From positions 124,001 to 188,000 of the forward strand of contig JAJFHV010000020.1 of the NCBI GenBank assembly GCA_021775415.1: a stretch of 64,000 nt of DNA, written 5' to 3'. This DNA is from Hyphomicrobiales bacterium. Lineage in GTDB: Bacteria > Pseudomonadota > Alphaproteobacteria > Rhizobiales > Rhizobiaceae. The translations under genes and the position numbers were made by a program. Positions 1-27,990 of the stretch are shown piece by piece (position 1 is the stretch's first letter; every line of letters starts with the position of its first letter). Below the pieces are notes generated by a model that ran no database searches, was not told where the DNA came from, and was given only the letters and a program-made list of their open reading frames with translations.

Positions 1-1249
1 CCGCAACGCCTAAAGCCCGGGCAGCAGTTTGAATGCGGGCGCTTTCGAAGGTCTTCATCAACTGTTTGAAGCCTTCGCCTTCCTTTTCACCCAGGGCTGA
101 AGAGACGGGAACTCGCAACCCGTCGAATGCTACATCGTATTCCTTCATGCCGCGATAACCGAGTACAGAGATTTCACCCCCTGAAATGTTGTCATCAGGG
201 AATGGATTTTCGGCATCTCCACGGGATTTTTCAGCCAACAGCATGGTGAGACCGCGATGGCCTTTTTCCTCGGGATTGGTGCGTACCAGTAACGTCATGA
301 GGTCGGAACGGCCAGCATGGGTTATCCAGGTCTTGTTGCCGGTAACGATATACTCCTCACCTTGTTTCCTGGCCCGGGTTGTAAGGCTTGCCAGATCGGA
401 ACCGATATCCGGTTCGGTGAACACAGCGACTGGTAGTATCTCGCCAGAAGCAATTTTTGGCAGGTAATTTTGCTTTTGTGCATCGGTGCCGCCATTGCTG
501 ATCAGTTCAGCAGCGATCTCCGAGCGGGTGCCCAAACTGCCGACACCGATATAGCCCTTGGACAATTCCTCGGTTATCACACACATGGCGAGCTTGCCCA
601 GTCCCGTGCCGTCAAATTCTTCGGGGATCGTCAACCCAAAAACTCCCAGTCCGGCAAGTTGTTCAACCAGTGCGTCCGGTATGAGGCAATCTTCTAGGTG
701 CCACTGATGGGCGTGGGGGGTGATTTCGCCAGCTGCGAAATCCTGAAACTGTTGAGTGATTTGTTGTAGCGTTTCGTCGAGGCCCTTATCACCCCATTCG
801 TTCGTGGCGGTCGCTTTTCGGGTGAGGCATTCTTCAACGATTTTCTGCGCGAGCTTTGCCACACTGAGGGCGTTGAGACTAATTACAGAAGCGTCATTTC
901 CAAGTTCAGAAGCAAGATCATCCGCGCCCAAGTCTGCCGGGCGGATAATCTCATCCTGGCTCATGGCAATTCCATGCTGGAGCTGGGCCAGATACTCACT
1001 GAACTGCGCCGCTGCAATATGCTGTTCAAGCTTTTGAAACCGGTTTTCACCCTCAAGCGCTTCTGCCCATTCCAGCGTTGCCGCCAGAACCTCGACATAG
1101 GCGGAAATCCAGGCAAACCCATGCCGGACGAATTGATTGTCAGTGGAGGTTTGATTGGAGACAAGCCGTTCACGAATTGCATGGGAATAAGAACGTGCTG
1201 CGATCACGGCCTGTCGCATGGATTGGAGAAGGGTTTTTTTCTCAAGCAT
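1..1249 (-). CDS. Acyl-CoA dehydrogenase with N-terminal extension, methylsuccinyl-CoA dehydrogenase-like (3' part missing)
   Basis: Reading the minus strand from 1249 gives an open frame to the left edge, so about 416 residues are visible and the C-terminus is outside. The last ~270 visible residues are a typical acyl-CoA dehydrogenase N-terminal and middle region (VFTEPDIGSDLAS, then GNKTWITHAGRSD). The first ~150 residues are an extra helical segment absent from ordinary members; such an extension is known in methylsuccinyl-CoA dehydrogenase (Mcd) of the ethylmalonyl-CoA pathway. The substrate is therefore inferred, not proven. There are ATGs at 1252 and 1249; GAGG at 1256-1259 is better spaced for 1249. 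The start overlaps the preceding CoA-transferase stop by 8 bp, suggesting translational coupling. The catalytic base region is not in the window. Confidence 0.85.
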   Translation of the reverse strand, partial: MLEKKTLLQSMRQAVIAARSYSHAIRERLVSNQTSTDNQFVRHGFAWISAYVEVLAATLEWAEALEGENRFQKLEQHIAAAQFSEYLAQLQHGIAMSQDEIIRPADLGADDLASELGNDASVISLNALSVAKLAQKIVEECLTRKATATNEWGDKGLDETLQQITQQFQDFAAGEITPHAHQWHLEDCLIPDALVEQLAGLGVFGLTIPEEFDGTGLGKLAMCVITEELSKGYIGVGSLGTRSEIAAELISNGGTDAQKQNYLPKIASGEILPVAVFTEPDIGSDLASLTTRARKQGEEYIVTGNKTWITHAGRSDLMTLLVRTNPEEKGHRGLTMLLAEKSRGDAENPFPDDNISGGEISVLGYRGMKEYDVAFDGLRVPVSSALGEKEGEGFKQLMKTFESARIQTAARALGVA

Positions 1250-2414
1250 CATCAGCCTCGCCCAGTTCGTCGAGTACAGCTTTTGTGTCTGACCCGACCG
1301 GAGAGGCGGGGCGCACTTTCAAACGCTCCTTGCCGGCGAACGTAAGAGGTGATCCAGCAGCGCGAAGTTTGCCGATGCCGGGCTGTTCAATTTCTTCAAA
1401 CAGGGGATTATCTGTTGATGCGCGTGGATCGTTTCGAACCATTTGCTGGAAAGTCTGGTACGGTCCCCACAGGATTTTTGCCGCATCAAATTGTTTGGCG
1501 ATTTCGCTCAACTGGAGTGTCTTTGACCAAATCTGAAGGGTTGCCAATATCTCATCGCGCGCCTCGTAGCGCCCTTCATCGGTATCCAGATTGTGACCGG
1601 TGTTGCTTTGGATTGTCGCCATCGCTTCAGCGGTTTTAGTTACCGTAACCAAAGCCCGCCAATGTCGTTTTGTAAGCGCAATCACCATCAACTGACGACC
1701 ATCCCTTGTGGGTAAATTATGGCCAAATGCACCATAGATGTGATTGCCGATTGCGGGGCGGTCACGTTTCAAAATTTCGGCTTCACCCATATATCCAAGA
1801 TTTGAGACCATGGCGTAGGCAACATCAGAAAGTGATAGCGTGACATGCTGCCCCTCGCCGGTTTTTCTGCGGTGGCGTTCTGCGGCCAGTATGCCGGTTG
1901 CAAGTGTCATACCGGCCACTGCATCCCAGGCTGGAAAGACGCTGTTTACTGGCTGATCGCTGCTCGCATTGCCGGTTGCAAACGGTATCCCGACTGCGCA
2001 ATTGACGGTGTAATCGACGGCAGCAGAGCCGTCATTGTGACCTGTCAGGCTTACCATGATGAGGTCAGGTCGAACCTTGCGCAGTTCGTCATATGAAAGC
2101 CATGCAGGCCCGGTCAAATTGGTAAGCAAAATCCCGCCATCACTGCCGGATGACTTCAAAATGTTGCGGAATATTTCCTGACCTGACTCTTCCTTCAGAT
2201 CAAGTGCGACCGTGCGCTTACCCTTGTTGAGGCCTGCCCAATAAAGGCTTGTGCCGTCTTTTGTGAGTGGCCAGCGCTTGTAATCAATGCCACCGCCGAC
2301 CGGATCCACCCGAATTACCTCTGCTCCAAGTTGTGACAGGGTAAGACCGGCAAGCGGTACCGCGACAAACGCAGATAATTCCACGACCTTCAATCCATCA
2401 AGGATGTCATACAT
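1242..2414 (-). CDS. CaiB/BaiF (family III) CoA-transferase
   Basis: 390-residue family III CoA-transferase, which moves CoA between an acyl-CoA and a free carboxylic acid through an aspartyl-CoA thioester. The N-terminal Rossmann motif (LDGLKVVELSAFVAVPLAG) and Asp164 in PAWDAVAGM, at the place of the catalytic Asp, are visible. A longer frame starts at 2486, but those 24 residues lie inside the flavin reductase gene and are not family-like. The ATG at 2414 overlaps the flavin reductase stop by 8 bp (ATGTATGA). Fourth gene of a five-gene minus-strand operon (ridA-like, hydrolase, flavin reductase, this, acyl-CoA dehydrogenase). It probably activates the acid made upstream in the pathway so the dehydrogenase can act on it. 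Substrate unknown. Confidence 0.88.
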   Translation of the reverse strand: MYDILDGLKVVELSAFVAVPLAGLTLSQLGAEVIRVDPVGGGIDYKRWPLTKDGTSLYWAGLNKGKRTVALDLKEESGQEIFRNILKSSGSDGGILLTNLTGPAWLSYDELRKVRPDLIMVSLTGHNDGSAAVDYTVNCAVGIPFATGNASSDQPVNSVFPAWDAVAGMTLATGILAAERHRRKTGEGQHVTLSLSDVAYAMVSNLGYMGEAEILKRDRPAIGNHIYGAFGHNLPTRDGRQLMVIALTKRHWRALVTVTKTAEAMATIQSNTGHNLDTDEGRYEARDEILATLQIWSKTLQLSEIAKQFDAAKILWGPYQTFQQMVRNDPRASTDNPLFEEIEQPGIGKLRAAGSPLTFAGKERLKVRPASPVGSDTKAVLDELGEADDA

Positions 2415-3387
2415 CAATAGCTGCTTCTGATTTTTCTTCGACCTGCCGGGTTTCACCGGCATATTCGTCACCAAGATAAATCGCAAAGCGGCCCTGGCGC
2501 AGTTCCTTTACATAGCGGCGCAGCATAAAGCGCATTGCGCCATCTTCGATCTTGTCAAAGTCGATCTCTTCAATTGGAATAAACCGCAATCCTTCTGGTA
2601 CTTTTCCAGTTGCAGTACCCCGATAATAAATCGAGTAGTTTTTGGTTTTCTTGTCTTCATAAACAGACAAGGGGAAATCCAGGGAAACTTCGAGCCCGCC
2701 CTCGCTCAATGAGTCTGCGAGTGCCGCAGGACTTGCGGAGGCGCTGCAAGTTTCCGTGCTCGGCACGGTGAGCTTCCCGCTTTCCTTATCAACGTGCAGC
2801 AGGATTTCACTGTCATTTTGCGCAAGGACTGCTCCAATGATGGTACCTGCAGTACGGCTGGCGGCTTCAACCAGTGAGCGTTCCAATTCAAGAGTGAAAT
2901 ATCCGCCGTTTACATAACCGAGCGGTGCACGCTGCTCATAAGCGTAGTCATTCACACGGCCAATGAGCACGATGTGATCACCAGCCTCAACGACCTGTTC
3001 ACGGCTGCATTCAAACCAGGCATTAGTTCCATCAATGAGCGGCACGCCGGATTTGCCCGGATGCCAGTCGGCCACATCAAATTTGTCTGCCCGCTGGGTA
3101 GCAAAAATACCTGCTACGTCTTCCTGTCCTTCACCCAGGATATTGACGGCAAATCCGGCACCATCACAAAAGACAGACAGACTGGCGGCGGATTTGCCGA
3201 TGCAGATCAACACAAGTGGCGGGTCCAGGGAAACGGAAGTGAAAGAGTTTGCCGTGAACCCGCGGGGCGTGCCGTTCGCCTCAACGGTTGTAACGATGGT
3301 AACCCCCGTTGCGAAGGTTCCAAAGGCATTGCGCAAATCCCGTGGGTCAATTGCGGTATTGGGCTGAATGTTTGATTCGTTTGCCAT
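2407..3387 (-). CDS. Flavin reductase with C-terminal extension (RutF/HpaC-like)
   Basis: 326 residues. Residues ~10-165 are a flavin reductase-like FMN-binding split barrel (AFGTFATGVTIVTT near the N-terminus, GFTANSFTSVSLDPPLVLICIG, then GDHIVLIGRVNDYAY). Such proteins reduce FMN or FAD with NAD(P)H and pass it to a two-component monooxygenase. The likely partner is the luciferase-like monooxygenase at 7378-8412. Residues ~170-326 form an additional domain that ordinary RutF or HpaC proteins (about 160-190 residues) lack; I cannot assign it. The gene starts 6 nt after the alpha/beta hydrolase stop and its own stop is overlapped by the CoA-transferase start, so it is inside one operon. ATG at 3387; ribosome binding site weak. 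Confidence 0.88.
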   Translation of the reverse strand: MANESNIQPNTAIDPRDLRNAFGTFATGVTIVTTVEANGTPRGFTANSFTSVSLDPPLVLICIGKSAASLSVFCDGAGFAVNILGEGQEDVAGIFATQRADKFDVADWHPGKSGVPLIDGTNAWFECSREQVVEAGDHIVLIGRVNDYAYEQRAPLGYVNGGYFTLELERSLVEAASRTAGTIIGAVLAQNDSEILLHVDKESGKLTVPSTETCSASASPAALADSLSEGGLEVSLDFPLSVYEDKKTKNYSIYYRGTATGKVPEGLRFIPIEEIDFDKIEDGAMRFMLRRYVKELRQGRFAIYLGDEYAGETRQVEEKSEAAIDV

Positions 3388-3393
3388 CTATTA

Positions 3394-4182
3394 TCAATAA
3401 ACCCGCTTTAGGAATGACAAAAGCTTTTCATTAAAAATTGCCGGGTCCTCCATCATGGCCATGTGCCTGAGACCCTTGAGAATTACCAGTTCTGACCTCG
3501 GAATTTCGCCCGCAATTGCGCGGGACATTTCCGGTGAATTTCCGTAATCTTCCTCTCCGGTCATCACCAGTGCAGGGCAGGAAATTGCCGGAACGGGTGC
3601 CACAAGCTCTTCAACACCCGTGGCCAGTACATTGTAATATCCGGGGTAATCCGCAGCATCATTTGCCATCACCCATTGGCGCACAAGATCCAAAGTTTCA
3701 GGGTTGGCGATTCGAAACGCTTCACCGAACCAGCGTGTAAGGGCTGCTTCTATTGTTGCTGAAGGTCCGCTTTGCTTTGCCTGTTCGACGCGGGCAACAA
3801 TTGCCTCTTGTGCTATTTTTGAACGTTTGTGAGCTGACGATAATATGCCCAGTGCAGATAGTCTTTCTGGATGGTCCATCGCGAACCGTCGGCAAATCAT
3901 ACCGCCGATTGAAAATCCGAAGACTGCGCAAGTATCAACTCCCAACTCATCCAGCAGAACCCTCAATTGGGTTGAAAAAAGTTTGAGGTCCGGATTGGCA
4001 GCCCAATTTGGGGTTTCACCATGGCCACACAGATCATAGGTCAAGACTTTGTAATCTTTCCCCAGTGCGGACACTTGCTGCTGCCACATAGCCTGATTGA
4101 GGCCGAGGCCGTGGATCAATACAACAACCGGTCCGTTACTCCCATGCCAGTGATAGGATGTGCGTTTCGCTGTTTCGTTCAT
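3394..4182 (-). CDS. Alpha/beta hydrolase (3-oxoadipate enol-lactonase/RutD-like)
   Basis: 262-residue alpha/beta hydrolase. Visible are the oxyanion-hole motif HGLGLNQAMW, the nucleophile elbow GFSIGG (Ser91) and the C-terminal catalytic His240 in GLRHMA. It resembles PcaD-type enol-lactonases and RutD, which in the Rut pathway speeds aminoacrylate hydrolysis. A TTG at 4200 could extend it by six residues, but the ATG at 4182 gives the usual N-terminus. It follows the RidA-family gene by 28 nt and precedes the flavin reductase by 6 nt. Its place between a RidA protein and a flavin reductase is the same trio as RutC-RutD-RutF, so hydrolysis of a ring-opened or enamine intermediate is a reasonable inference. 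Confidence 0.88.
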   Translation of the reverse strand: MNETAKRTSYHWHGSNGPVVVLIHGLGLNQAMWQQQVSALGKDYKVLTYDLCGHGETPNWAANPDLKLFSTQLRVLLDELGVDTCAVFGFSIGGMICRRFAMDHPERLSALGILSSAHKRSKIAQEAIVARVEQAKQSGPSATIEAALTRWFGEAFRIANPETLDLVRQWVMANDAADYPGYYNVLATGVEELVAPVPAISCPALVMTGEEDYGNSPEMSRAIAGEIPRSELVILKGLRHMAMMEDPAIFNEKLLSFLKRVY

Positions 4183-4210
4183 CAGGATATTCAAGTGCAA
4201 CTCGCTGGGA

Positions 4211-4612
4211 TTACTGGGGTTTGTATGCCACTACTTCGACTTCGACCCGCACATCGATCAGCAACTCGCTGACGACTGCAGAACGCGCTGGCGGCTCTTC
4301 AGGGAAGTATTCTCCATAAACTGCGTTGAAGCCCGGAAAATCAGCCCGGTCTCTCAGCCAAATCATCGCCTTTACCACATCTTTTAGCGAGCAGTTGGCC
4401 TGGTGCAGAGTGTTTTTAATTTCATCGAGTACCGCGCGGGTTTGGTCTTCAACTGTTCCCTCGGTCATCAACGCCCCATCCTTAAAGGGCACCTGTCCGG
4501 TGAGGAACACAAAATCACCGGCTCGAACCGCGTGCGACAGGGACAGTTGTCGTCCACCTATCACCAACGGGTCGCCAATAATTTGTTTTTTGCCTCTTGG
4601 ATTTTCTGTCAC
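4211..4612 (-). CDS. RidA family protein (YjgF/RutC-like)
   Basis: 133-residue RidA/YjgF-family protein. Members hydrolyse reactive enamine/imine intermediates or act in degradative pathways such as Rut. Typical features are FVFLTGQVPF, the LDEIKNTLHQANCSLKDVVKA stretch in the middle and RSAVVSELLIDVRVEVEVVA near the end, which holds the conserved Arg. The start is taken as GTG at 4612 because an AGGAG lies 6 nt upstream; the longer frame from TTG at 4645 has no such site. First gene of the minus-strand operon, divergent from the aldehyde dehydrogenase. The shared intergenic region carries an inverted repeat that is a likely operator. Confidence 0.9.
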   Translation of the reverse strand: MTENPRGKKQIIGDPLVIGGRQLSLSHAVRAGDFVFLTGQVPFKDGALMTEGTVEDQTRAVLDEIKNTLHQANCSLKDVVKAMIWLRDRADFPGFNAVYGEYFPEEPPARSAVVSELLIDVRVEVEVVAYKPQ

Positions 4613-4660
4613 GGTAGTCTCCTGCAGAAGATACGTAGCTTGCAAAATACATTCGGTGGC

Positions 4661-4695
4661 ACAAGTTTTTCGACTACCGGTGTCGAAAAATCTTG
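4661..4695. promoter_or_regulatory. Inverted-repeat operator between ridA-like and aldehyde dehydrogenase genes
   Basis: Perfect 9-bp inverted repeat TTTTTCGAC (4666-4674) / GTCGAAAAA (4682-4690), 7 nt apart. It extends to CAAG / CTTG if one T is skipped. It sits in the divergent region between the ridA-like start (4612) and the aldehyde dehydrogenase start (4786). The half-site TGTCGAAAAATC (4681-4692) recurs exactly on the minus strand at 8502-8513, before the monooxygenase gene. Probable binding site of the GlxA/AraC-type regulator at 6294-7385; inference only. Confidence 0.6.
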
Positions 4696-4785
4696 ATAAG
4701 ATGTTAGATATAACGACAAAATTGAGACTGGCAAATTTGTTGTAATACCGGAGAACTCCAGCCGGTTCGTTTGAGGAAACAATGC

Positions 4786-6270
4786 ATGGCAGACCTTGTA
4801 CACTATCAAATGCTCATCAACGGGGAATGGGTGGATGCGGAAGATGGCAAGACCTTTGTCAGTGTGAACCCGGCAACCCAGGAACCGTGGGCGGAAATTC
4901 CTGAAGCGACCGCTGCCGATGTGAATCGCGCGGTAGAAACTGCCCATGCAGCGTTCACAGAGGGGCCGTGGGCAAGTTTTACACCAACCGAACGCGGGCG
5001 GCGGTTACGCAAACTGGCAGATTTACTGGCAGAAAATTCCGAAACGCTTGGCCGCACGGAGTGCGTGGATACCGGTAAACTGTTCACCGAGACCCGCTGG
5101 CAGGCAAAGTATATTGCCGACTTCTTTCACTACTATGCAGGTTGTGCTGACAAGATCCACGGCAATACCCTGCCAATCGACAAGCCGGACATGTTTGCAT
5201 TTACTTCGCGGGAACCTCTGGGTGTCGTTGCGGCGGTGGTACCATGGAATTCACAGTTGTTTTTGGTTGCGGTGAAGATCGGACCGGCCCTTGCCGCTGG
5301 CAACACAATCGTGCTCAAGGCATCAGAACATGCCTCTGCTGCGATGCTTGAATTCGGCAAGCTAATTGAGCAGGCCGATATTCCGCCAGGAGTAGTAAAC
5401 ATTGTATCCGGGCACGGTGACCCGTGTGGCAAGGTTTTGACCTCGCATCCCCTGGTGCAACGCATTAGCTTCACCGGCGGCCCAACGGCTGCAACCCATG
5501 TACTCCATAATTCAGCAAACAATTTTGCCGAGGTTTCCCTGGAACTCGGTGGCAAGTCGCCATTTATCGTGTTTGAGGACGCTGACATTGAAAGCGCTGT
5601 AAACGGTTCGATTGCCGGGATATTCGGTGCAGCTGGGCAAAGCTGTGTTGCCGGATCCAGACTTTATCTGCATGAGGATATCGCAGATGATTTCCTTGAA
5701 CGCATGGTTGCGTTGGCCAAGCAAATCCGGATCGGTGATCCGCTGTTGGAAGACACCCAAATGGGGCCCCTGTGCACCGTTGGGCAATTGGAAACCGTAC
5801 AAAGGGAAGTTGCGTTTGCGGTTGAAGAAGGCGGCAAGGTTTTGTGTGGCGGCACGCAACCGGCAGACCAGGGCAACGGGTTGTTTTTTGAACCGACCAT
5901 CGTCGAATGCAAAAGCCAGCAACAGAAAATTATCGACACCGAGCTGTTTGGGCCGGTTTTGAGCGTCCTGCGATTCAAGGATGAAGATGAAGTTATAGGG
6001 CTTGCGAATGATACAGTGCACGGTCTTGCTGCCGGTATATTTACCACGGACAGTGCGCGTTCGATGCGGGTCGCAAAAGCGGTACGCGCCGGGATAGTGT
6101 GGGTGAATACCTACCGTGTTGTTTCCCCGATTGCAGAGTTTGGAGGCTTTAAAGGTTCCGGCTACGGGCGAGAGTCGGGATTCCAGGCAATGTATGATTA
6201 CACCAGACCGAAAACGGTCTGGATTAATACCTCCAAGGAGCCGATGAGCAATCCATTTGTGATGCGCTAG
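4786..6270 (+). CDS. NAD(P)+-dependent aldehyde dehydrogenase
   Basis: 494-residue aldehyde dehydrogenase that oxidises an aldehyde to its acid. All key residues are present: Asn155 in VVPWNSQ, Lys178 in VLKASEH (cofactor), Glu253 in LELGGKS (general base) and Cys287 in GQSCVAGS (nucleophile). The ATG at 4786 is preceded by GAGGAAA; the frame also opens at TTG 4771, but that start has no support. It is divergent from the ridA-like operon and 23 nt upstream of the regulator, so the two plus-strand genes are probably cotranscribed. In a Rut-like scheme it would oxidise a semialdehyde product (malonic semialdehyde or an analogue) before CoA activation. Exact substrate unknown. Confidence 0.92.
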   Translation: MADLVHYQMLINGEWVDAEDGKTFVSVNPATQEPWAEIPEATAADVNRAVETAHAAFTEGPWASFTPTERGRRLRKLADLLAENSETLGRTECVDTGKLFTETRWQAKYIADFFHYYAGCADKIHGNTLPIDKPDMFAFTSREPLGVVAAVVPWNSQLFLVAVKIGPALAAGNTIVLKASEHASAAMLEFGKLIEQADIPPGVVNIVSGHGDPCGKVLTSHPLVQRISFTGGPTAATHVLHNSANNFAEVSLELGGKSPFIVFEDADIESAVNGSIAGIFGAAGQSCVAGSRLYLHEDIADDFLERMVALAKQIRIGDPLLEDTQMGPLCTVGQLETVQREVAFAVEEGGKVLCGGTQPADQGNGLFFEPTIVECKSQQQKIIDTELFGPVLSVLRFKDEDEVIGLANDTVHGLAAGIFTTDSARSMRVAKAVRAGIVWVNTYRVVSPIAEFGGFKGSGYGRESGFQAMYDYTRPKTVWINTSKEPMSNPFVMR

Positions 6271-6293
6271 ACTGAATTCTTGCTGGAGTGCAA

Positions 6294-7385
6294 ATGAAGA
6301 CAGATCTGAAATCGCTGGCAGAGCGCAAGCTATCAAAAATGGCGTTTGTGCTCATTCCACGCTTCAACATGATGACCTTGATGACGACCATCGAGCCGAT
6401 GCGGATTGCCAATTATCTTTCACCAGAACCATTGTTTGAGTGGAATTTTTTCTCGTTTGACGAGCCGGTGGTTGTTGCCAATAACGGCATGCAAATTGAA
6501 TGCGAGACTCTACAGAGCGCGGATAATTTTGACATAATTTTTGTTGTTGGCAGTTGGGGATGTGAGCGTTTTGTAAGTCCAAATGTGGTCAACTGGGTTC
6601 GCCGTCAGGAGCGCAAGGGAACAATTATTTGCGCCTTTGAACTTGGTGTCTATGTGCTTGCAAAAGCGGGGCTCTTGTCTGGAAGAATTGCCACCACCCA
6701 TTGGTCCTGCATGCCCGGATTTGCGGAGCAATTTCCAAATATCGATTTACAGGAACAATTATTCACAATTGACGGCAATATTATCACCTGCGCTGGTGGT
6801 ACGAGCGGCATAGATTTGATGCTGCAAATGATCGGCATATGCCACAATGAACAACTGGCTTCGGAAGTAGCCGATCAAATCATGCACCACCCAACGCGCA
6901 AGGGTGATGCGGTTCAACGTCATACACTGGGTGGTACAACGGATACCATCCATCCGGACGTGGCTGCAGCGGTCAAAATCATCGAAGAAAATGTCTCTGA
7001 TCCGCTTACCATTCCAGAGGTTGCCCGAGAGATTGGCCTGTCACAACGCCAGCTTGAGCGCTGTTTCAAGCGTTATATGGGGTGTTCTGTCGTACAATTC
7101 AGCCAGTTGATGAGGCTGCAATATGCGCGGGTTTTGCTCACCACCACACAGCTATCGATACGGCAGGTGTCGGTCGCAAGCGGCTTCAATTCCATGTCGC
7201 ATTTTTCTCACGCGTTTTTCAAATGTTTTGGAAAAAAGCCAAGCCAGTACCGTCAGGCATGGCCGGACAACGAGGCCTCACCCTCGTGGCGGGGCACGGT
7301 CTATTCGCTTGTCGAAGCGGCAAGACTAAATGCCCAGCGTAAAACACAAATCAGCGAATTACCGGATCGTTCGAAACTTAATTGA
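6294..7385 (+). CDS. GlxA-type transcriptional regulator (GATase1-like domain plus AraC HTH)
   Basis: 363 residues. The N-terminal half is a DJ-1/PfpI (class I glutamine amidotransferase-like) ligand domain; the nucleophile elbow region reads ICAFELGVYVLAKAGLL, so no catalytic Cys is kept. The C-terminal ~100 residues are two AraC-type helix-turn-helix motifs (TIPEVAREIGLSQRQLERCF and SIRQVSVASGFNSMSHFSHA). Proteins of this build (CdhR, GbdR, ArgR-like) usually activate amine or amino acid catabolism genes. Start ATG 6294 with GGAG 5 nt upstream is preferred over GTG 6288. It overlaps the convergent monooxygenase gene by 8 bp. Its location and the repeated TCGAAAAATC sites make it the likely local regulator. 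Confidence 0.9.
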   Translation: MKTDLKSLAERKLSKMAFVLIPRFNMMTLMTTIEPMRIANYLSPEPLFEWNFFSFDEPVVVANNGMQIECETLQSADNFDIIFVVGSWGCERFVSPNVVNWVRRQERKGTIICAFELGVYVLAKAGLLSGRIATTHWSCMPGFAEQFPNIDLQEQLFTIDGNIITCAGGTSGIDLMLQMIGICHNEQLASEVADQIMHHPTRKGDAVQRHTLGGTTDTIHPDVAAAVKIIEENVSDPLTIPEVAREIGLSQRQLERCFKRYMGCSVVQFSQLMRLQYARVLLTTTQLSIRQVSVASGFNSMSHFSHAFFKCFGKKPSQYRQAWPDNEASPSWRGTVYSLVEAARLNAQRKTQISELPDRSKLN

Positions 7386-8412
7386 AAGCCGGGATGACCT
7401 CGTTGCAGAACAATTTCAAGGAACGCTTTTGATCCGCGTGGCCTTGACCGGTACTGGAATAAAATATGAACTCATCCACACCTAAGGCTTCGTAAAGCTT
7501 CAGTTTTGCGATTACTTCGTCAGGCGTGCCATACATCAAATTGTTGTGCAGCATATCGGGATCGTACTCGTCGCGGTTTTTGAGTGCGGTAAATTCAACC
7601 GGTTTTGGAAATCCGTTATCAACGTCACCGAGGTTTTTGAACAGGTTCTCAAACTGGCCCAATTGCCGCTGAACGCATTTAATCGCCTCTTCGCGATCTG
7701 CAGGTGTTTCGTGGACTGAGGTATGGCGCATCATCGCAAAGGTTGGTTTCTTGGAGCCTGGATTATTGGCCATTGCTTCATCCAGCCGGCCTTTGTAGGC
7801 CTCGGCTTCATCCATGCCACGGGTAAGCGGCCAGGACATGATGTTGCAATTGTTCTTTACCGCGTAATCATAGGTAATGGGTGCGCGCGCGGCGATCCAG
7901 ACCGGAATTTCCTTCTGGACCGGTTTAGGGACGGAGGTGGACACCGGGAAAGACCAAAATTCGCCATTGTGTTCATAGTCACCTTTCCACAGGGCGCGTA
8001 CTACCGGGATCATCTCATTCATGTATCGCCATGCATCGGATTGTTTGAGGCCCGGAGCCATCCGGTCAAATTCACGCTGATAGGCACCCGAACCAATACC
8101 GAACTCAAGCCGCCCACCACTGATGAGGTCGGTGAATGCTGCAGTTCCGGCCAATTTGATCGGGTGCCAATAGGCCGCGACCGCAACGGCAGTACCCAGC
8201 CGAATGGTATTGGTATGGGTTGCCCACCAGGTAAGGATTTGAAATGGATCAGGGGTGGCGGTCATTTCAAGAGCATGATGCTCCGCAGACCAAACTGTTG
8301 AGAAGCCACCAGTTTCAGCCGTCTGAACCATCTCAAGATTGTGGCGGGCTGCATCGCGCATATCGACGCTCGGGTCGAGCCGCTCCAGATTTACTGCCAA
8401 TTGAAATTTCAT
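7378..8412 (-). CDS. LLM-class flavin-dependent monooxygenase (bacterial luciferase-like)
   Basis: 344-residue TIM-barrel flavin-dependent monooxygenase of the luciferase-like family. Characteristic segments are TVWSAEHHAL, the IRLGTAVAVAAYWHPIKLAG strand-loop, SGGRLEFGIGSGAYQREFDR and VPVWIAARAP as VWIAARAP. Such enzymes use FMNH2 supplied by a separate reductase and insert oxygen into small organic molecules; RutA is one example. The ATG at 8412 has AAGGGG about 8 nt upstream; the longer frame from 8472 runs into the promoter repeats. It is monocistronic, transcribed on the minus strand and divergent from glpD. Its promoter carries the same motif as the ridA-like/aldehyde dehydrogenase region, so it probably belongs to the same regulon. 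Confidence 0.9.
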   Translation of the reverse strand: MKFQLAVNLERLDPSVDMRDAARHNLEMVQTAETGGFSTVWSAEHHALEMTATPDPFQILTWWATHTNTIRLGTAVAVAAYWHPIKLAGTAAFTDLISGGRLEFGIGSGAYQREFDRMAPGLKQSDAWRYMNEMIPVVRALWKGDYEHNGEFWSFPVSTSVPKPVQKEIPVWIAARAPITYDYAVKNNCNIMSWPLTRGMDEAEAYKGRLDEAMANNPGSKKPTFAMMRHTSVHETPADREEAIKCVQRQLGQFENLFKNLGDVDNGFPKPVEFTALKNRDEYDPDMLHNNLMYGTPDEVIAKLKLYEALGVDEFIFYSSTGQGHADQKRSLKLFCNEVIPAFN

Positions 8413-10118: not shown

Positions 10119-11243
10119 ATGGGGCCGCTCGCCAATCTCAAGGTTATTGAAATGGTAGGTATCGGGCCGTGTCCCTTGGCCGGACAGTTGCTTGCGGATC
10201 TTGGTGCTGATGTGATTGTTGTGGACCGGACTTCGGGGGTTCCGTTGGCAAAAGAAGTGAATCGGCGGGGCAAACGGTCAATCGCGCTTAACCTCAAGGA
10301 CCCGCGTGGCGTTGCGACTTTGATGGAACTTGTGCGCAAAAGTGATGTGCTGATTGAAGGCTTCCGGCCCGGTGTGATGGAGCGTTTGGAGCTAGGACCA
10401 GATATTTGTCTGGCGGCAAATCCCCGTTTGATTTACGGGCGGATGACTGGCTGGGGGCAGGAGGGTCCGCTCGCTAAAACTGCAGGTCACGATATCAATT
10501 ATCTGGCGTTGACCGGATATCTACACGCGATCGGCAAAGCCGGCGAACCACCGGTTCCGCCGCTCAACCTGGTTGCCGATTATGGTGGTGGAACCATGTT
10601 TCTGCTGCTTGGCGTGCTTTCAGCGCTTTTTGAGCGACAGGTTTCAGGCAAGGGACAGGTCATAGATGCGGCGATGATAGATGGGGTTCCCGCGATGATG
10701 GGATTGATTCAGACCGCCTTGGCGAGCGGAAACTGGAGTATGGAGCGCGAGAGTAACCGGCTAGATGGCGCTGCTCCATTTTACCGGTGTTACAAAACCA
10801 GCGATGAAAAGTTTATCTCGGTTGGTGCGCTTGAACCGCAATTTTTTGAGGAATTCATCAGTCTGCTTGAGCTTGATCCGGGATTATGTAAACAGCAATG
10901 GGACCGTTCACAATGGCCCGAGATGATAGCGTTGTTTGAAGCAACATTTGCGCAAAGGCCCCGCGATGAATGGGCCGCAGTCTTTGAGGGGCGGGATGGG
11001 TGTGTTGTGCCGGTGCTTGATTTTGAAGAGGCGGCACAACATCCCCACAATGTGGCTCGTGGGACTTTTTTTGAAAATGCCGGGGTTACGCAGACGAGCC
11101 CGGTACCGGTATTTAACCGCAGCGCGATGGATAAACCCGCACCTGCCACAACCACAGGCATTGATGGTATACAGGTGTTGGCGGAAGCTGGATTGAGTGA
11201 CGCAGAGATCGGCGATCTGGAAGCCAACAACGTACTGCTTTAA
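10119..11243 (+). CDS. Alpha-methylacyl-CoA racemase (CaiB/BaiF superfamily)
   Basis: 374 residues, closest in pattern to AMACR/MCR rather than to CoA-transferases. Racemases of this type interconvert (2R)- and (2S)-methylacyl-CoA by alpha-proton exchange, needed before beta-oxidation of methyl-branched acyl chains. The N-terminal EMVGIGPCPLAG, GHDINYLALTG with His124 and PPLNLVADYGGGTMFLL with Asp154 match the catalytic His/Asp regions of the mycobacterial enzyme. Starts 1 nt after the glpD stop, preceded by GGGAAGAAG. The amidase follows after 8 nt. One of three CaiB-superfamily genes in the window, and the only one with the racemase motifs. Confidence 0.9.
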   Translation: MGPLANLKVIEMVGIGPCPLAGQLLADLGADVIVVDRTSGVPLAKEVNRRGKRSIALNLKDPRGVATLMELVRKSDVLIEGFRPGVMERLELGPDICLAANPRLIYGRMTGWGQEGPLAKTAGHDINYLALTGYLHAIGKAGEPPVPPLNLVADYGGGTMFLLLGVLSALFERQVSGKGQVIDAAMIDGVPAMMGLIQTALASGNWSMERESNRLDGAAPFYRCYKTSDEKFISVGALEPQFFEEFISLLELDPGLCKQQWDRSQWPEMIALFEATFAQRPRDEWAAVFEGRDGCVVPVLDFEEAAQHPHNVARGTFFENAGVTQTSPVPVFNRSAMDKPAPATTTGIDGIQVLAEAGLSDAEIGDLEANNVLL

Positions 11244-12658: not shown

Positions 12659-13768
12659 ATGAAAACACGCGCAGCCGTAGCCTTCGAGGCAGGGAAACCT
12701 CTTGAAATATGTGAAGTTGATCTTGAGGGTCCAAAAGAAGGTGAAGTCCTTGTGGAAATCAGGGCGACCGGCTTGTGCCACACGGATGAATTCACCCGTT
12801 CCGGTGCAGACCCGGAAGGTATTTTTCCTGCAATCCTTGGCCATGAGGGTGCAGGCGTTGTGGTTGATGTGGGACCGGGTGTCACGTCGCTCAAAAAGGG
12901 AGATCATGTCATTCCGCTTTACACGCCAGAGTGTCGCGAGTGTGATTATTGTACCTCCGGTAAGACCAATCTTTGCCAGAAAATCCGTGTCACCCAGGGC
13001 CAGGGTCTGATGCCAGATGGCACCTCGCGCTTCTCAATAAAAGGTGAGAAGACTTTCCACTACATGGGCACTTCTACATTTTCCAATCACACGGTTGTGC
13101 CGGAAATTGCCCTGGCGAAAGTGCGGGAAGACGCACCGTTTGAATCGATTTGTTACATCGGCTGCGGTGTGACAACCGGCATTGGTGCAGTCATCAATAC
13201 GGCCAAGGTTCAGCCCGGCGACAATGTGGTCGTATTCGGTCTTGGTGGCATTGGTCTTAATGTTATTCAGGGTGCGCGCCTTGCTGGTGCCAATATGATT
13301 GTTGGCGTTGATCTCAATCCTGCCCGCGAGGAATGGGGTGAGAAGTTTGGCATGACACACTTTATCAACCCGACTGAGGTTGAGGGTGATTTGGTGCCAT
13401 ACATCGTGGATCTGACCGGTGGTGGCGCTGACTATTCGTTTGAGTGTATTGGCAATGTGAATGTCATGCGTCAGGCACTTGAGTGTTGTCACAAGGGTTG
13501 GGGCACCAGTGTTATTATCGGTGTCGCAGGTGCCGGACAGGAAATTGTCACGCGGCCTTTCCAACTCGTCACTGGTCGTAATTGGCGCGGTACTGCCTTT
13601 GGCGGCGCAAAGGGGCGCACGGATGTTCCAAAAATCGTCGATTGGTACATGAATGGCAAAATCCAGATTGATCCGATGATTACCCACACCATGCCTCTGG
13701 AAGACATCAACAAGGGCTTTGACCTGATGCACAAGGGCGAGAGCATTCGTGGTGTGGTGAAGTTCTAG
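12659..13768 (+). CDS. adhC: S-(hydroxymethyl)glutathione dehydrogenase / class III alcohol dehydrogenase
   Basis: 369-residue zinc-dependent medium-chain dehydrogenase that oxidises S-hydroxymethylglutathione to S-formylglutathione, the first enzymatic step of glutathione-dependent formaldehyde removal; it can also reduce S-nitrosoglutathione. Catalytic zinc ligands Cys40 and His62 (GHEGAG) and the structural zinc cysteines 92, 95, 98 and 106 ([16 protein letters not shown]) are all present, as is the Rossmann motif GLGGIGLNV. Length and the full zinc set are typical of class III ADH. It is followed after 1 nt by a VOC protein and, two genes on, by S-formylglutathione hydrolase, which supports the assignment. 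Also known as frmA, flhA or gfaA-linked adhI. Confidence 0.96.
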
Positions 13769-14718: not shown

Positions 14719-15543
14719 ATGAAAACCGTATCCACAAACAATTCACATGGTGGTGTTCAAGGCGTCTATTCGCACGCATCCGCCACTTGCAATTGCGAGA
14801 TGACCTTTTCGGTCTTTGTGCCGCCACAGGCGGAATCCAACCCATGCCCGGTATTGTATTATCTCTCCGGTCTTACCTGCACCCATGCCAATGTCATGGA
14901 GAAGGGCGAGTATCGTGCAGTTGCTGCAAAGCGCGGGATCATCGTTGTTTGCCCGGATACCAGTCCGCGCGGCGATGATGTGGTCAATGAGGATGCGTAT
15001 TTCTTTGGTAGTGGTGCCGGTTTCTACGTGGATGCCACGGAAGAGCCCTTTGCCAAGCACTACAATATGTACTCCTATGTTACGCAGGAGCTGCCAACCT
15101 TGATTGGTGACAATTTCAACGCGGATATGGATCGCCAGTCGATCTTCGGTCACTCAATGGGTGGGCATGGGGCGCTGACGATCGCTTTGAAAAATCCGGA
15201 TCAATATAAATCGGTTTCTGCTTTTGCACCTATCTGCGCGCCTTCCGGCACGGAGTGGGGCAGCAATGCATTTTCCAAGTATCTGGGTGATGAGAGCACA
15301 TGGCGTGCTTATGACAGTGTCAGCCTGATAGAGGATGGTAATCGGCTTGGTGATATTCTGGTGGACCAGGGAACCGGCGATGAATTTCTGGAATCCGGGC
15401 TGCGACCTCAATTGCTGGAAGCCGCTTGTGCGGAGGCGAACATCCCGCTCACCCTGCGCATGCAGGATGGCTATGACCATTCCTATTATTTTATTTCCTC
15501 ATTTATGGCAGATCACATTGCCTGGCATGCAGAGCGGTTGTAA
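14719..15543 (+). CDS. fghA: S-formylglutathione hydrolase
   Basis: 274-residue esterase-D family enzyme that hydrolyses S-formylglutathione to formate and glutathione, completing the pathway begun by the upstream dehydrogenase. It shows the family block PVLYYLSGLTCTHANVMEKG, the nucleophile elbow FGHSMGGHGAL with Ser146 and a C-terminal DGYDHSYYF with the catalytic His. Length is usual. ATG 14719 is preceded by GAGGCAG. Called frmB or fghA in other bacteria. The window does not contain formate dehydrogenase genes, so formate removal must be encoded elsewhere. Confidence 0.95.
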   Translation: MKTVSTNNSHGGVQGVYSHASATCNCEMTFSVFVPPQAESNPCPVLYYLSGLTCTHANVMEKGEYRAVAAKRGIIVVCPDTSPRGDDVVNEDAYFFGSGAGFYVDATEEPFAKHYNMYSYVTQELPTLIGDNFNADMDRQSIFGHSMGGHGALTIALKNPDQYKSVSAFAPICAPSGTEWGSNAFSKYLGDESTWRAYDSVSLIEDGNRLGDILVDQGTGDEFLESGLRPQLLEAACAEANIPLTLRMQDGYDHSYYFISSFMADHIAWHAERL

Positions 15544-24544: not shown

Positions 24545-25399
24545 TCAGCCCGGTGACAGACCGCGCAGACGCTCGGAACGACGGCGCAACAGTTCCAGTG
24601 TAGTCAGCAGGACGATCGAAAAGGCCACCATCAGTGTAGCAACTGAAAGGATGGTCGGTGAAATCTGCTCGCGCAGGCCGGTAAACATCTGCCATGGCAG
24701 GGTTTTTTGACCCGATGATCCAACGAACAGCACGACGACGACCTCATCAAATGACGTGATGAAAGCAAACAGCGCGCCGGAAACAACGCCGGGCATGATC
24801 AATGGCATTTGAACCTTGAAGAAGGTGCGAACCGGATCAGCACCGAGATTGGCGGCAGCCCGGGTCAGGCTCTTGTCGAAACTCACCAGCGTCGCGGTGA
24901 CGGTAATAATCACAAATGGTGTGCCAAGAGCGGCATGGGAAAGTACTACGCCCCAATAGGTTCCCTGTAATCCGATGCGTGAATAGAAGAAGTACATGCC
25001 CGCGGCAGATATGATCAAAGGCACGATCATTGGCGAAATCAATATTGCCATAATGGTGCCGCGAAACGGTACATGTGACTGAGACAACCCGATCGCAGCA
25101 AGGGTACCAAATCCGGTTGCAAGTAGTGTTGCTACCGGTGCGATCCGGAAGGAGTTATAAACCGCGTTGTTCCAGTCAGAGTTCGTGAAAAAGTCCTCGT
25201 AATTCTTCAAGCTGTATCCAGCCGGATCAAACGCCAGCATTTCCTTTGTGAACGTGAAAAACGGCAGCGAATTAAAGGAAAGCGGGATGATCACAATGAT
25301 CGGAAAGATCAGGAAAAAGAAGATCAAAGCGCAGATAATACGGAAGCCATAATACCATGACCTCTGTACTGGTGACGCATAAGGTGGAAGACCTGACAT
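24545..25399 (-). CDS. ABC transporter permease, polyamine/spermidine type (PotC/PotI-like)
   Basis: 284-residue inner-membrane permease with about six predicted membrane segments. The EAA-type cytoplasmic loop reads LTRAAANLGADPVRTFFKVQMPLIMPG, which docks the ATPase. Last gene of a four-gene import operon (ATPase, binding protein, permease, permease). ATG 25399 is preceded by AAGGAAAC, which overlaps the upstream permease stop region. It ends at base 24545, directly abutting the convergent GST gene, so no terminator separates the two. Confidence 0.93.
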   Translation of the reverse strand: MSGLPPYASPVQRSWYYGFRIICALIFFFLIFPIIVIIPLSFNSLPFFTFTKEMLAFDPAGYSLKNYEDFFTNSDWNNAVYNSFRIAPVATLLATGFGTLAAIGLSQSHVPFRGTIMAILISPMIVPLIISAAGMYFFYSRIGLQGTYWGVVLSHAALGTPFVIITVTATLVSFDKSLTRAAANLGADPVRTFFKVQMPLIMPGVVSGALFAFITSFDEVVVVLFVGSSGQKTLPWQMFTGLREQISPTILSVATLMVAFSIVLLTTLELLRRRSERLRGLSPG

Positions 25400-25408
25400 G
25401 TTGTTTCC

Positions 25409-26689
25409 TTAACCCAGTTTCACATTATCGATGCCGACAATCTTGTCGTACATCCAGTAGAAGAGCATGACGATTGCCAACAGGATTACGCCAAGCGCTG
25501 CCCCCAGCCCCCAGTTCAGTGAGGAAGAGATATGATAGGCGATCCGGTTGGAGATGAAGATACCGGATGTACCACCCACCAGTTCCGGCGTGATGTAGAA
25601 GCCGATTGACAGGATGAAACACAGAATTGATCCGGCACCAATTCCAGGAATGGTATTTGGGAAATACACTTTCCAGAACGCGGTCCAGTCATTTGCGCCA
25701 AGGCTTTTGGCTGCTCTTACATAAGTGGGCGAGATTGTTTTCATCACCGAATACAGCGGCAGGATCATGAAAGGCAAAAGAATATGCGTCATGGCAATGA
25801 TGGTGCCAGTCTGGTTGTTGATCATCACCAGTCGGCCGGCATCAGTCACCAGCCCTGTCCAGACGAGGAAATCATTGATGACACCTTGCTGTTGCAACAA
25901 CACTTTCCAGGCGGATGTCCGCACCAAAAGGGAAGTCCAAAACGGCAGTAACACCATGATCATCAACAGGTTGGATGAACGCAGGGGCAGGTTTGCCAGC
26001 AAAAATGCTATCGGATAACCTAACAAAATGCAGGATATGGTGATCGTAACGCTGAGAAAGAATGTCCGACCAAACAGAAACAGATAGATCTGTTCTTTTT
26101 CGGGTTTCTCGGCAATACCCTGCTCGGTTCGCTCCCGGTCGATGGCAGACAGAAAGTAGCCATCCGTGTATTTTGAGCTGAACTGCTTGATGGTTGCCCA
26201 GTTTTCAACCGTTCCCCAACCTTCGTGGATTTCAATGAATTGTTCCCGGTAAGGCGGTTCTTCGAGGTTTTTCACCTTTCGACCGGATTTCCGGAACATG
26301 CTTGCGATGCCCGGTTGTTCGTAATTTAGCCGGCTGCCCAATCGAGTGTGGGTTTTCTGCGAAACAGCGATCTTCAAATCGCCAGCAAGCGCCTCGAATA
26401 CGGGTTCGCCGGGAATTTCACCGGAGTTCGGATTCCAATCACGCAATGCTACCACGGTGTTGGGCAAGGTGTTTTGTACGATGTTGTTTTCCACCGAGCG
26501 GAACAGCATGTCTGCAATCGGGGCGACGAAAGCTAGCAAAATAAACAACAGCAACGGCGCGATTAACATCAGCGCCCGCATTTTTTCACGGCGTAGGGCA
26601 CGCGCCAGGCTGCGCTTAAGAGGCACGCCATCGCGCGTGGTCAGGACTTCACTTGTAGTACCTGTTTCACTTGCTGCGATATCAGTCAT
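25409..26689 (-). CDS. ABC transporter permease, polyamine type (PotB/PotH-like), with long N-terminal periplasmic insert
   Basis: 426 residues, longer than PotB/PotH (about 275-320). The first membrane segment (ALMLIAPLLLFILLAFVAPI) is followed by ~140 residues of hydrophilic, presumably periplasmic sequence before the remaining membrane segments begin near FFLSVTITISCILLGYPIAF as FLSVTITISCILLGYPIAF. The EAA loop is YVRAAKSLGANDWTAFWKVYFP. Insertions of this kind occur in some alphaproteobacterial transporters annotated for spermidine/putrescine. It starts 84 nt after the binding-protein gene, across a strong hairpin. AAAAGAG precedes ATG 26689. Confidence 0.92.
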   Translation of the reverse strand: MTDIAASETGTTSEVLTTRDGVPLKRSLARALRREKMRALMLIAPLLLFILLAFVAPIADMLFRSVENNIVQNTLPNTVVALRDWNPNSGEIPGEPVFEALAGDLKIAVSQKTHTRLGSRLNYEQPGIASMFRKSGRKVKNLEEPPYREQFIEIHEGWGTVENWATIKQFSSKYTDGYFLSAIDRERTEQGIAEKPEKEQIYLFLFGRTFFLSVTITISCILLGYPIAFLLANLPLRSSNLLMIMVLLPFWTSLLVRTSAWKVLLQQQGVINDFLVWTGLVTDAGRLVMINNQTGTIIAMTHILLPFMILPLYSVMKTISPTYVRAAKSLGANDWTAFWKVYFPNTIPGIGAGSILCFILSIGFYITPELVGGTSGIFISNRIAYHISSSLNWGLGAALGVILLAIVMLFYWMYDKIVGIDNVKLG

Positions 26690-26733
26690 GCTCTTTTAAA
26701 ATCCCTAAAACGAATCTCTTGGTTGAGGTGGCT

Positions 26734-26756
26734 GGAACGGGAGCAAGTCCCGTTCC
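26734..26756 (-). terminator. GC-rich hairpin between binding-protein and permease genes
   Basis: Perfect 9-bp inverted repeat GGAACGGGA / TCCCGTTCC with a 5-nt loop. It extends by a GGC/GCC pair if one T bulge is allowed. No T-run follows on the minus strand, so it is more likely an mRNA-stabilising or partially attenuating hairpin that keeps the binding-protein message more abundant than the permease message. Confidence 0.6.
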
Positions 26757-26773
26757 GCCGATTTCATTAGACC

Positions 26774-27868
26774 TTACTTGGCAAGCCAAGCCTGGAATTT
26801 CGCGTCGATATCGTCGCGATTATCCGCCCAGAACTCGTAATTGTAGAGGAACGTGTTCTTGGCATTGTTCGGATCGGTAGGCATATGTGGTGCCATTTCG
26901 ATACCGAGTGTGGCGTGCTTGCCAACCAGTGGTGCAGAAGATGCACGCGCAGGACCATACGAGATGTACTTGGCCTGGTCTGCCAGTTGCTGGGTGCCGG
27001 TTGCAAACTTGACGTAATCAAGCGCACGAGCTTCACGCTCTGGTGAAAGACCGGTTGGAATAATCCAGCCATCAAGGTCAAACACCTGAGCATCCCAAAG
27101 CATGCCAACAGGCTGCTTCTGCTCTTCAATCAGGGCAAACAGACGACCATTATAGGTCGAACCGATTACAACTTCACCATCAGCCAGAAGCTGTGGTGTT
27201 TCTGACCCTGAAGCCCACCAGACAACACTGTCCTTGATGGTGCCGAGTTTAGCCAGTGCCTGGTCAACACCTTCAGGTGTACCAAGAACCTTGTACACAT
27301 CTTCCTTCGCAACACCGTCGCAAAGCAGAGCCCATTCAACATTGTTGATTGGACGCTTCTCAAGTGCACGCTTGCCTGGATAAGCAGCAAGATCGAACAC
27401 ATCACAGATGTCATCTGGTGGTGTAGCGCCAACTTTATCGGTGCGGTAACCAAATGTGGTTGAGTACACGATCTGTGGAATGAAGCATGGTGAAACAAGA
27501 AGATCACCAAAGTCCTCCGAAGCAGGTGTGCCATCTGGTGCTGGAGCAAGCTGAGTGTCTGCATCAAGTTCGATTGCAAGACCTTCGTCGCAAGCACGCA
27601 GTGCATCAGCGGCAACCGCATCAACTACGTCCCAGGTAACGTTTCCTGCTTCTTTCATCGCGCGAAGTTTGGCGATGGCTTCAGCAGCAGATTCATCATT
27701 GATGATGTTTACGCCGGCGTTGTTGGCCATATATGGCTGATGATAAGCAGCATCTTGAGATGCGGAATAAGCTCCGCCCCAAGATACGATCGTCATATCT
27801 TCAGCAACAGCAGCAGAAGTAGCTAACGCGCCTACTGCAACTGAAAGCATCAGTGTTTTGAGTTTCAT
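26774..27868 (-). CDS. Periplasmic substrate-binding protein, PotD/PotF-like
   Basis: 364-residue extracellular solute-binding protein. The signal peptide is MKLKTLMLSVAVGALATSAA followed by VAE. The mature protein starts DMTIVSWGGAYSASQDAAY, typical of polyamine/thiamine/iron-type (family 1) binding proteins, and carries VVDAVAADALRACDEG and WIIPTGLS. Ligand cannot be read directly; the adjacent ureohydrolase suggests a guanidino compound or polyamine. ATG 27868 with GGGAGAAAAC is preferred over the longer frame from 27949. It is flanked on both sides by hairpins, consistent with independent control of its message level. Confidence 0.93.
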   Translation of the reverse strand: MKLKTLMLSVAVGALATSAAVAEDMTIVSWGGAYSASQDAAYHQPYMANNAGVNIINDESAAEAIAKLRAMKEAGNVTWDVVDAVAADALRACDEGLAIELDADTQLAPAPDGTPASEDFGDLLVSPCFIPQIVYSTTFGYRTDKVGATPPDDICDVFDLAAYPGKRALEKRPINNVEWALLCDGVAKEDVYKVLGTPEGVDQALAKLGTIKDSVVWWASGSETPQLLADGEVVIGSTYNGRLFALIEEQKQPVGMLWDAQVFDLDGWIIPTGLSPEREARALDYVKFATGTQQLADQAKYISYGPARASSAPLVGKHATLGIEMAPHMPTDPNNAKNTFLYNYEFWADNRDDIDAKFQAWLAK

Positions 27869-27940
27869 GAGTTTTCTCCCTTTGATTTTTCGTTCACTCT
27901 TCTCTTGTCGACACCCCACACTTTGGTGAGGTATGCGATA

Positions 27941-27976
27941 CGCTCCCACTTCACTCTTCAGCTGTTATTGGGAGCG
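27941..27976 (-). repeat. Inverted repeat between ATPase and binding-protein genes
   Basis: CGCTCCCA (27941-27948) and TGGGAGCG (27969-27976) form a perfect 8-bp inverted repeat around a 20-nt loop. It lies in the 122-bp gap before the binding-protein gene. It could be an mRNA processing or stabilising element, or an operator for a second promoter that serves the binding-protein gene. Confidence 0.45.
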
Positions 27977-27990
27977 AATTCTAAGTACTG

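Follow-up and report, generated by a model that had tools for sequence, protein, structure and literature searches.

What compound is broken down by a locus that sets a luciferase-like monooxygenase (LLM), a flavin reductase and a RidA-family protein beside enzymes of acyl-CoA metabolism? The question is raised by the first 8.4 kb of the window, by which we mean the whole 64,000-nucleotide stretch analyzed here (G000:C12:124001-188000, from a Hyphomicrobiales genome, G000, of 3.46 Mb in 23 contigs that is 97% complete). An initial annotation regarded the locus as related to the Rut pathway of uracil degradation. We argue below that a trigonelline-type comparison should replace this one, and that the locus is quite possibly, though somewhat short of probably, an operon that degrades a quaternary, zwitterionic N-heteroaromatic betaine and releases its ring carbons as methylsuccinate or a similar diacid. 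The genes, the last of which possibly belongs to the locus, are as follows.

1..1252, running off the window edge, minus strand: acyl-CoA dehydrogenase resembling methylsuccinyl-CoA dehydrogenase (Mcd) (Pfam; PDB 6es9, 8ciw)
1242..2414, minus strand: class III CoA-transferase, 2-methylfumaryl(mesaconyl)-CoA isomerase-like (TIGR04253; PDB 8apq, 7xkg)
2407..3387, minus strand: flavin reductase of 326 amino acids with an extra C-terminal part (PF01613, residues 23-166; PDB 3rh7, residues 12-319)
3394..about 4182, minus strand: alpha/beta hydrolase (Pfam; closest model PcaD, under cut-off)
4211..4645, start codon unsure, minus strand: RidA-family protein with a PARS motif (PF01042)
about 4786..6270, plus strand: aldehyde dehydrogenase (ALDH) (Pfam; closest model betaine-aldehyde dehydrogenase, under cut-off)
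about 6294..7385, plus strand: GlxA/GbdR-type regulator, DJ-1/PfpI domain plus AraC helix-turn-helix (PF01965, PF12833)
7378..8412, minus strand: LLM, 344 amino acids (PF00296; tree; AlphaFold2 model)
10119..11243, plus strand: second class III CoA-transferase (PF02515)

Position 8412, where the initial annotation ended, is the ATG of the LLM gene; at the other end the dehydrogenase gene, which encodes 544 amino acids in full, reaches 382 bases past the window edge. The families that had been named (LLM, flavin reductase, RidA, hydrolase, ALDH, CoA-transferase and acyl-CoA dehydrogenase) are all recovered by Pfam, and we agree that the RutB isochorismatase and RutE nitroreductase families have no match in the eight locus proteins and ten neighboring ones. 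The regulator between the ALDH and LLM genes had been missing from the gene list. The minus-strand row of RidA, hydrolase, flavin reductase, CoA-transferase and dehydrogenase genes is tightly packed, with the ALDH and regulator genes on the opposite strand. The flavin reductase gene ends at 2407, inside the CoA-transferase gene, whose most likely start codon is the ATG at 2414, and the CoA-transferase gene ends at 1242, overlapping the dehydrogenase gene, which starts at 1252. An AA_synth gene (PF06684) continues the row just beyond the window edge. The LLM, whose AlphaFold2 model has a luciferase fold (mean pLDDT 87), is presumed to be the ring-opening oxygenase, with the flavin reductase as its presumed FMNH2 supplier. 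The hydrolase is presumed to act on a formamide or lactone, and the RidA-family protein, whose PARS motif we take to have catalytic meaning, as an enamine/imine deaminase.

A chance grouping of these genes is argued against by the congener G009, in which all eight (Mcd, CoA-transferase, reductase, hydrolase, RidA, ALDH, regulator and LLM) recur at 62-86% identity with gene order and strands unchanged, though AA_synth does not adjoin them. A check for conserved synteny had been proposed with the initial annotation: the full set is present in this one of 11 congeners, and smaller versions recur elsewhere. A 67% identical relative of the second CoA-transferase is also located near the LLM in G009. 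The place directly next to the Mcd gene, which AA_synth occupies in the window genome, is taken in G009 by an ABC transporter of the betaine type. Its binding protein shares 91% identity with the one in L015, an LLM cluster of a type that contains a thiamine pyrophosphate (TPP) enzyme. The transporter genes of L015 match choline and glycine-betaine permease and binding-protein models, under cut-off, and choline/proline-betaine-type transporters are present in L015, C58 pAt and Azospirillum loci. The locus regulator scores 255 bits on the GbdR model (cut-off 480) and is 82% identical to the regulator of the butyrobetaine-like cluster L004. Because G009 and L015 share the betaine-type transporter, clusters of the window type and of the TPP type both appear, by homology, tied to quaternary-nitrogen substrates. 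Taken together, betaine-type transporters and a GbdR-like regulator, in this locus and its relatives, point to a quaternary-nitrogen substrate.

An Mcd-like dehydrogenase and its CoA-transferase partner

The dehydrogenase matches PDB 6es9, which we take to be the Mcd of Paracoccus, with 575 bits over 504 residues, and 8ciw, titled (2S)-methylsuccinyl-CoA dehydrogenase, with 280 bits. The initial annotation had called this protein extended. The N-terminal extension is real, but it is also present in 6es9, the best structural match, which covers it (residues 54-550). The nine other matches to the dehydrogenase in the genome start at residue 156 or later and have at most 34% identity. The best match of the CoA-transferase is PDB 8apq, a 2-methylfumaryl-CoA isomerase (416 bits; 404 for 7xkg), and on the TIGR04253 model it scores 443 bits, under the cut-off of 725.

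The partner of Mcd in the ethylmalonyl-CoA pathway is crotonyl-CoA carboxylase/reductase (Ccr). The window genome, at 97% completeness, has no Ccr over the cut-off (best score 77.6 bits, cut-off 378.55). Mcd is present at E <= 1e-100 in six of 21 genomes (its own and 20 relatives): G013, G014, G016 and G018, which have a Ccr over the cut-off, and G000 and G009, which do not. The locus Mcd, which is 57-58% identical to the Mcd of four Ccr-bearing relatives, is therefore probably not serving the ethylmalonyl-CoA pathway, and we rejected a housekeeping role in that pathway for want of a Ccr over the cut-off. The locus thus shares with the ethylmalonyl-CoA pathway and the 3-hydroxypropionate bicycle an Mcd-like dehydrogenase and a mesaconyl-CoA isomerase-like transferase, but differs from them in its genome's lack of a Ccr over the cut-off and in the TIGR04253 score of its transferase. 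The pairing of these two enzymes in a genome without a Ccr over the cut-off is a new finding of this analysis.

Comparable sets exist elsewhere. An Azospirillum plasmid (L099) has relatives of the Mcd (61%) and the transferase (53%) with two genes between them; in a Sinorhizobium mexicanum plasmid (L101) the Mcd (59%), transferase (46%), MaoC and CitE genes are contiguous; and a Paraburkholderia plasmid (L100) has a 47% identical transferase, MaoC, CitE and a more distant dehydrogenase of 569 amino acids (41%). Neither L099 nor L100 has an LLM among its listed annotated genes; L101 is unannotated and was searched with the CoA-module queries only. In Aminobacter, different CoA-transferase, acyl-CoA dehydrogenase, MaoC, CitE and MmgE/PrpD genes directly adjoin the LLM locus, and the flavin reductases of L005, L006 and L027 are fused to a class III CoA-transferase of another kind. 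Judging from these families, the common theme of the Mcd/transferase-type sets may be a C5 branched diacid handled as its CoA ester. The proposal that an oxidative opening module is joined to acyl-CoA metabolism is borne out by the overlapping genes, their conservation in the congener and the three CoA-transferase-reductase fusions, so that the acyl-CoA link of the locus is strengthened.

Relatives of the monooxygenase and a butyrobetaine-like module

By similarity searches we located 21 related loci, and scored their neighbor genes by tblastn, simple open reading frame calling being unreliable in GC-rich loci. A TPP enzyme is located near the LLM in 11 of them, including loci from marine Rhodobacteraceae and SAR116, and at least two butyrobetaine-like genes in 4 of the 21. 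In a class-wide sample of 385 genomes, 16 (the window's own genome included) have an LLM match at E <= 1e-110. We examined the surroundings of all 16 matches outside the own genome, one of which (L084) repeats another (L011): at least two butyrobetaine-like genes are present in 4 of the 16, BKACE alone in one more (L092), and a TPP enzyme at 69% identity or more in 3 of the 16; absences in this set are weak because several loci are short or reach a contig end. Overall, LLM-family loci are found in Rhodobacteraceae, SAR116, SUP05-type and Rhizobiaceae genomes and on rhizobial plasmids. Among laboratory strains, Aminobacter sp. SR38 (pSR3), Parasedimentitalea marina W43 (pW43B) and Pelagibius sp. 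Alg239-R121 have related clusters.

The LLM tree has 51 rows, which include paralogs and loci chosen differently (L084, which shares its contig with L011, was dropped). Ten of the 51 rows have two or more of the four butyrobetaine-like genes no farther than 12.5 kb from the LLM, and in these 10 rows an ALDH is near in seven, RidA in six and a CoA-transferase in four. The window LLM is sister to that of the congener (100/99), then to L005/L006 (94/95) and then to L004 (89/81), the last two supports lying under the starred level. L005, L006 and L004 are butyrobetaine-linked; the G009 row is not. The butyrobetaine label is scattered on the tree, and therefore the association recurs but does not mark one clade. 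Among the tree labels, the TPP label of L092 (a 28% match) should not count, and L062 and L085 each also have a CMD-family match.

The butyrobetaine-like genes are best seen in L028 (Aminobacter) and L027 (Parasedimentitalea), where the LLM is followed by crotonobetainyl-CoA-hydratase-like, carnitine-dehydrogenase-like, GlxA regulator, BKACE and ABC transporter genes, and then by genes for an acyl-CoA dehydrogenase and an ADP-forming-type CoA ligase. In the window genome, relatives of the hydratase, dehydrogenase, BKACE and ligase (81, 72, 76 and 54% identity) are on another contig, C6. Aerobic carnitine and gamma-butyrobetaine degradation uses the same kinds of gene that also lie beside some related LLMs (CoA ligase, dehydrogenase, crotonobetainyl-CoA-hydratase-like, carnitine-dehydrogenase-like and BKACE), but the LLM-side hydratase and carnitine-dehydrogenase-like genes form a group separate from the canonical ones. 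Contig C4 of the window genome holds a canonical carnitine cluster; its dehydrogenase, at 723.6 bits, is over the curated cut-off of 592, whereas the C6 copy falls under both models (314 bits, cut-off 414; 257 bits, cut-off 592). With the canonical set at C4, canonical carnitine degradation was ruled out for the C6 module. In the dehydrogenase tree, a branch with 100/100 support divides 12 C6-type rows, the majority LLM-linked, from five others; in the hydratase tree the division is 13 rows, including L010, against two, also at 100/100; and the BKACE tree is weaker, with nine C6-type rows grouped at 85/96. Locus L083 has the C6 type and the other type side by side, together with LLM, ALDH and RidA genes. 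Among 12 members of the genus, the C6-type BKACE (at least 94%), Mcd and a close LLM (at least 79%) all occur in the same two, G000 and G009, though several of the other members are incomplete and these two may simply be close kin. That LLM relatives recurrently have as neighbor a butyrobetaine-like CoA module, separate from the canonical carnitine genes, is likewise a new finding here.

Several other gene associations emerged from these comparisons. Farther outside the window, past the AA_synth gene and two transporter genes, are genes for a TPP enzyme and another alpha/beta hydrolase as well as, about 6.3 kb from the window edge, a second LLM that is 62% identical to the first and groups among the TPP rows in the tree. 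In this region (C12:116693-120275; L025:12699-16274) the TPP enzyme is 80% identical to that of L015 (Rhizobiaceae). A three-gene molybdenum hydroxylase lies directly beside the butyrobetaine-like module at G000:C6:78929-82520 (L044:4929-8520), and look-alike genes are in the same place in G009 (L058). L005 and L006 have a fused APH kinase and class III aminotransferase gene of 771 amino acids adjoining the LLM cluster (L005:2164-4479, L006:928-3243; domains from L005). Arginase-family genes lie near some TPP-type loci (L013 and L022, one in L011, and probably L015), as does a DDAH/arginine-deiminase-like gene (L015, L022). These neighbors suggest a step on a guanidino or amidine group, and guanidino compounds or other rings may be further substrates of the LLM family. 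In the window itself, Pot-type ABC transporter-like genes at about 24600-30225 adjoin an arginase-family-like gene that is 34% identical to that of L013. For AA_synth we had expected a RidA-like fold, an idea that was rejected: from a low-confidence model (pLDDT 69), Foldseek gave the DUF1185 structures 3byq and 2qtp and otherwise weak matches to other folds.

A candidate pathway and its alternatives

We infer the substrate, the order of steps and every enzyme activity as follows. With FMNH2 from the flavin reductase, the LLM would open a pyridinium-type ring to an N-formyl enamine aldehyde; the ALDH would oxidize the aldehyde product, the alpha/beta hydrolase would remove the formyl group or open a lactone, and RidA would hydrolyze the enamine. 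The rest of the ring carbons would exit as a branched C5 diacid (methylsuccinate or a near analog), which the Mcd-like dehydrogenase and the mesaconyl-CoA-isomerase-like transferase would convert as its CoA ester. For a 3- or 4-methyl pyridinium, a Tgn-type cleavage between C5 and C6 followed by oxidation, deformylation and enamine hydrolysis would give methyl-succinic semialdehyde, and its oxidation would give methylsuccinate, on which the Mcd/transferase pair would naturally draw. In this scheme each enzyme gene of the operon would have a role, the ALDH perhaps at two steps, and AA_synth would have none; the methylpyridinium mechanism is chemistry on paper. Genes for glutathione-dependent formaldehyde oxidation near the locus (window 12659-13768 and 14719-15543) and serine-cycle-like genes on G000:C19 (L106), both judged by reading the sequence, would suit the release of a C1 unit. 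The butyrobetaine-like CoA pathway (ligase, dehydrogenase, hydratase, dehydrogenase and BKACE), which adjoins the LLM in some relatives and of which the window genome has most on another contig, would trim back an acid side chain on this substrate. A two-armed heterocyclic-butyrobetaine pathway of this kind–one arm a paralogous carnitine pathway that shortens the side chain and ends in BKACE, the other an LLM that opens the (methylated) ring to give methylsuccinate for an Mcd recruited from the ethylmalonyl-CoA pathway–is a speculative extension that we think distinctly unlikely.

A number of observations weigh against the betaine operon proposed here. The whole locus was found in two genomes only (G000 and G009), and all the curated-model matches listed for it fall under their cut-offs. 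A structure search with the LLM gave bacterial luciferases as nearest folds and no recognized ring opener among the 50 listed, and the likeness of the locus to the Tgn pathway is one of architecture, not membership. We know of no 3-methylpyridinium betaine that is an abundant natural compound. The arginase- and DDAH-like genes of some related clusters fit a guanidino compound better than a pyridinium. In the window genome, the single query tried for mesaconyl-CoA hydratase (the Aminobacter MaoC) gave no match, and the sole CitE match is a lyase amid apparent serine-cycle genes. The link to the butyrobetaine-like module has its own exceptions: the LLM-linked L010 falls with the five non-C6-type rows of the dehydrogenase tree; in the BKACE tree the LLM-linked L010, L088, L091 and L092 are outside the C6-type group; L004, L088 and L091 have the LLM and a CoA arm without ALDH, RidA, hydrolase or reductase nearby; and the butyrobetaine label changes 8 times on the LLM tree, compared to 9.3 times in shuffles, a value as low being reached in 73 of 500.

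How do other readings fare? The initial annotation's, in which a Rut-like pathway would act on an uncharged amide ring (a pyrimidine, a lactam or another), draws on the LLM oxygenase, flavin reductase, RidA-family and alpha/beta hydrolase superfamilies, the same as those of RutA, RutF, RutC and RutD. Unlike Rut, the locus has a CoA arm and no RutB or RutE among the proteins examined, and the claimed kinship did not hold up: the curated models for RutC (62 bits, cut-off 169), RutD (91, 238) and RutF (84, 255) are far under cut-off, which rules out Rut membership, while the RutA model is not among the best 25 of 32 families for the LLM, which matches RutA chains at about 22 bits (E about 8e-4). 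"Rut-like" appears valid at the superfamily level only, and with the family's transporters and regulators pointing to quaternary nitrogen we consider this reading very unlikely. The Tgn pathway, which the initial annotation had left out of consideration, would seem a better architectural analog. Trigonelline ring opening employs an LLM (TgnA), a reductase (TgnB), an ALDH (TgnC) and a hydrolase (TgnD). All four families (LLM, flavin reductase, ALDH, alpha/beta hydrolase) are in the locus, and the Tgn substrate is of the betaine type suspected here; the locus additionally has RidA, AA_synth, CoA-transferase and Mcd. The Tgn system (TgnA-E) is that of Acinetobacter baylyi (Perchat et al. 2018), and homarine catabolism in environmental bacteria (Ferrer-Gonzalez et al. 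2026) likewise concerns an N-methylpyridinium betaine akin to the one we propose. According to PMC8269262, TgnA and TgnB open the trigonelline ring, homarine is a ring betaine abundant in marine phytoplankton, and Ruegeria pomeroyi DSS-3 can use trigonelline for growth and, less well, homarine.

The cluster might therefore degrade one of these known marine betaines, its CoA genes being local variation. In favor are the four shared families, the growth of DSS-3 on trigonelline together with its AA_synth protein of solved structure (2qtp), and six plasmid loci: L029 (Agrobacterium fabrum C58 pAt), L030, L031, L032, L102 and L103 have reductase-ALDH-LLM-hydrolase genes, AA_synth and a betaine or amino-acid ABC transporter, with a CMD-family decarboxylase gene in five of the six and succinate-semialdehyde dehydrogenase (SSADH) nearby in two (L030, L102). 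These plasmid loci are plausibly for trigonelline catabolism. The window operon, in contrast, has no SSADH (TgnE), its single ALDH scoring 389 bits on the SSADH model (cut-off 646); its LLM is apart from the four CMD-type rows in the tree; and the C4 or glutamate-type products expected from these betaines would need no Mcd. We consider trigonelline or homarine rather unlikely as the substrate. Perhaps no ring is opened at all, and the LLM oxidizes an open-chain quaternary amine (butyrobetaine, carnitine or a trimethyllysine derivative) at a C-N bond, with the ALDH taking the aldehyde, as its closest model, betaine-aldehyde dehydrogenase, and the recurrent adjacency of LLM and butyrobetaine-like genes would allow; but the genome has its separate carnitine cluster, with a dehydrogenase well over its cut-off, and RidA, the PcaD-like hydrolase and Mcd would have no obvious job, so this reading too strikes us as unlikely. 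Similarly, the Mcd/CoA-transferase pair could be a passenger, an independent module for methylsuccinate or mesaconate salvage that shares the operon, given that comparable pairs exist in L099 and L100, whose listed annotated genes include no LLM, and, together with MaoC and CitE, in L101 (unannotated, covered by CoA-module queries only). The start and stop codons that overlap with the flavin reductase gene, the retention of the pair in G009 and the presence of other CoA-transferases in other LLM loci, three of them fused to the reductase, argue against this, and we regard a passenger as quite improbable.

We recognized no paper describing this gene set in our literature searches, whose coverage did not extend to subscription papers and preprints. 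To our knowledge, few pathways that degrade ring betaines such as homarine have been established. If the betaine operon proposed here is correct, it would be a second route of ring-betaine use, one ending in acyl-CoA chemistry. A testable function would then be at hand for the paralogous "carnitine" genes, for an otherwise stray Mcd and perhaps for AA_synth (DUF1185) proteins, and the hunt for the substrate of the operon is practical because named strains carry related clusters.

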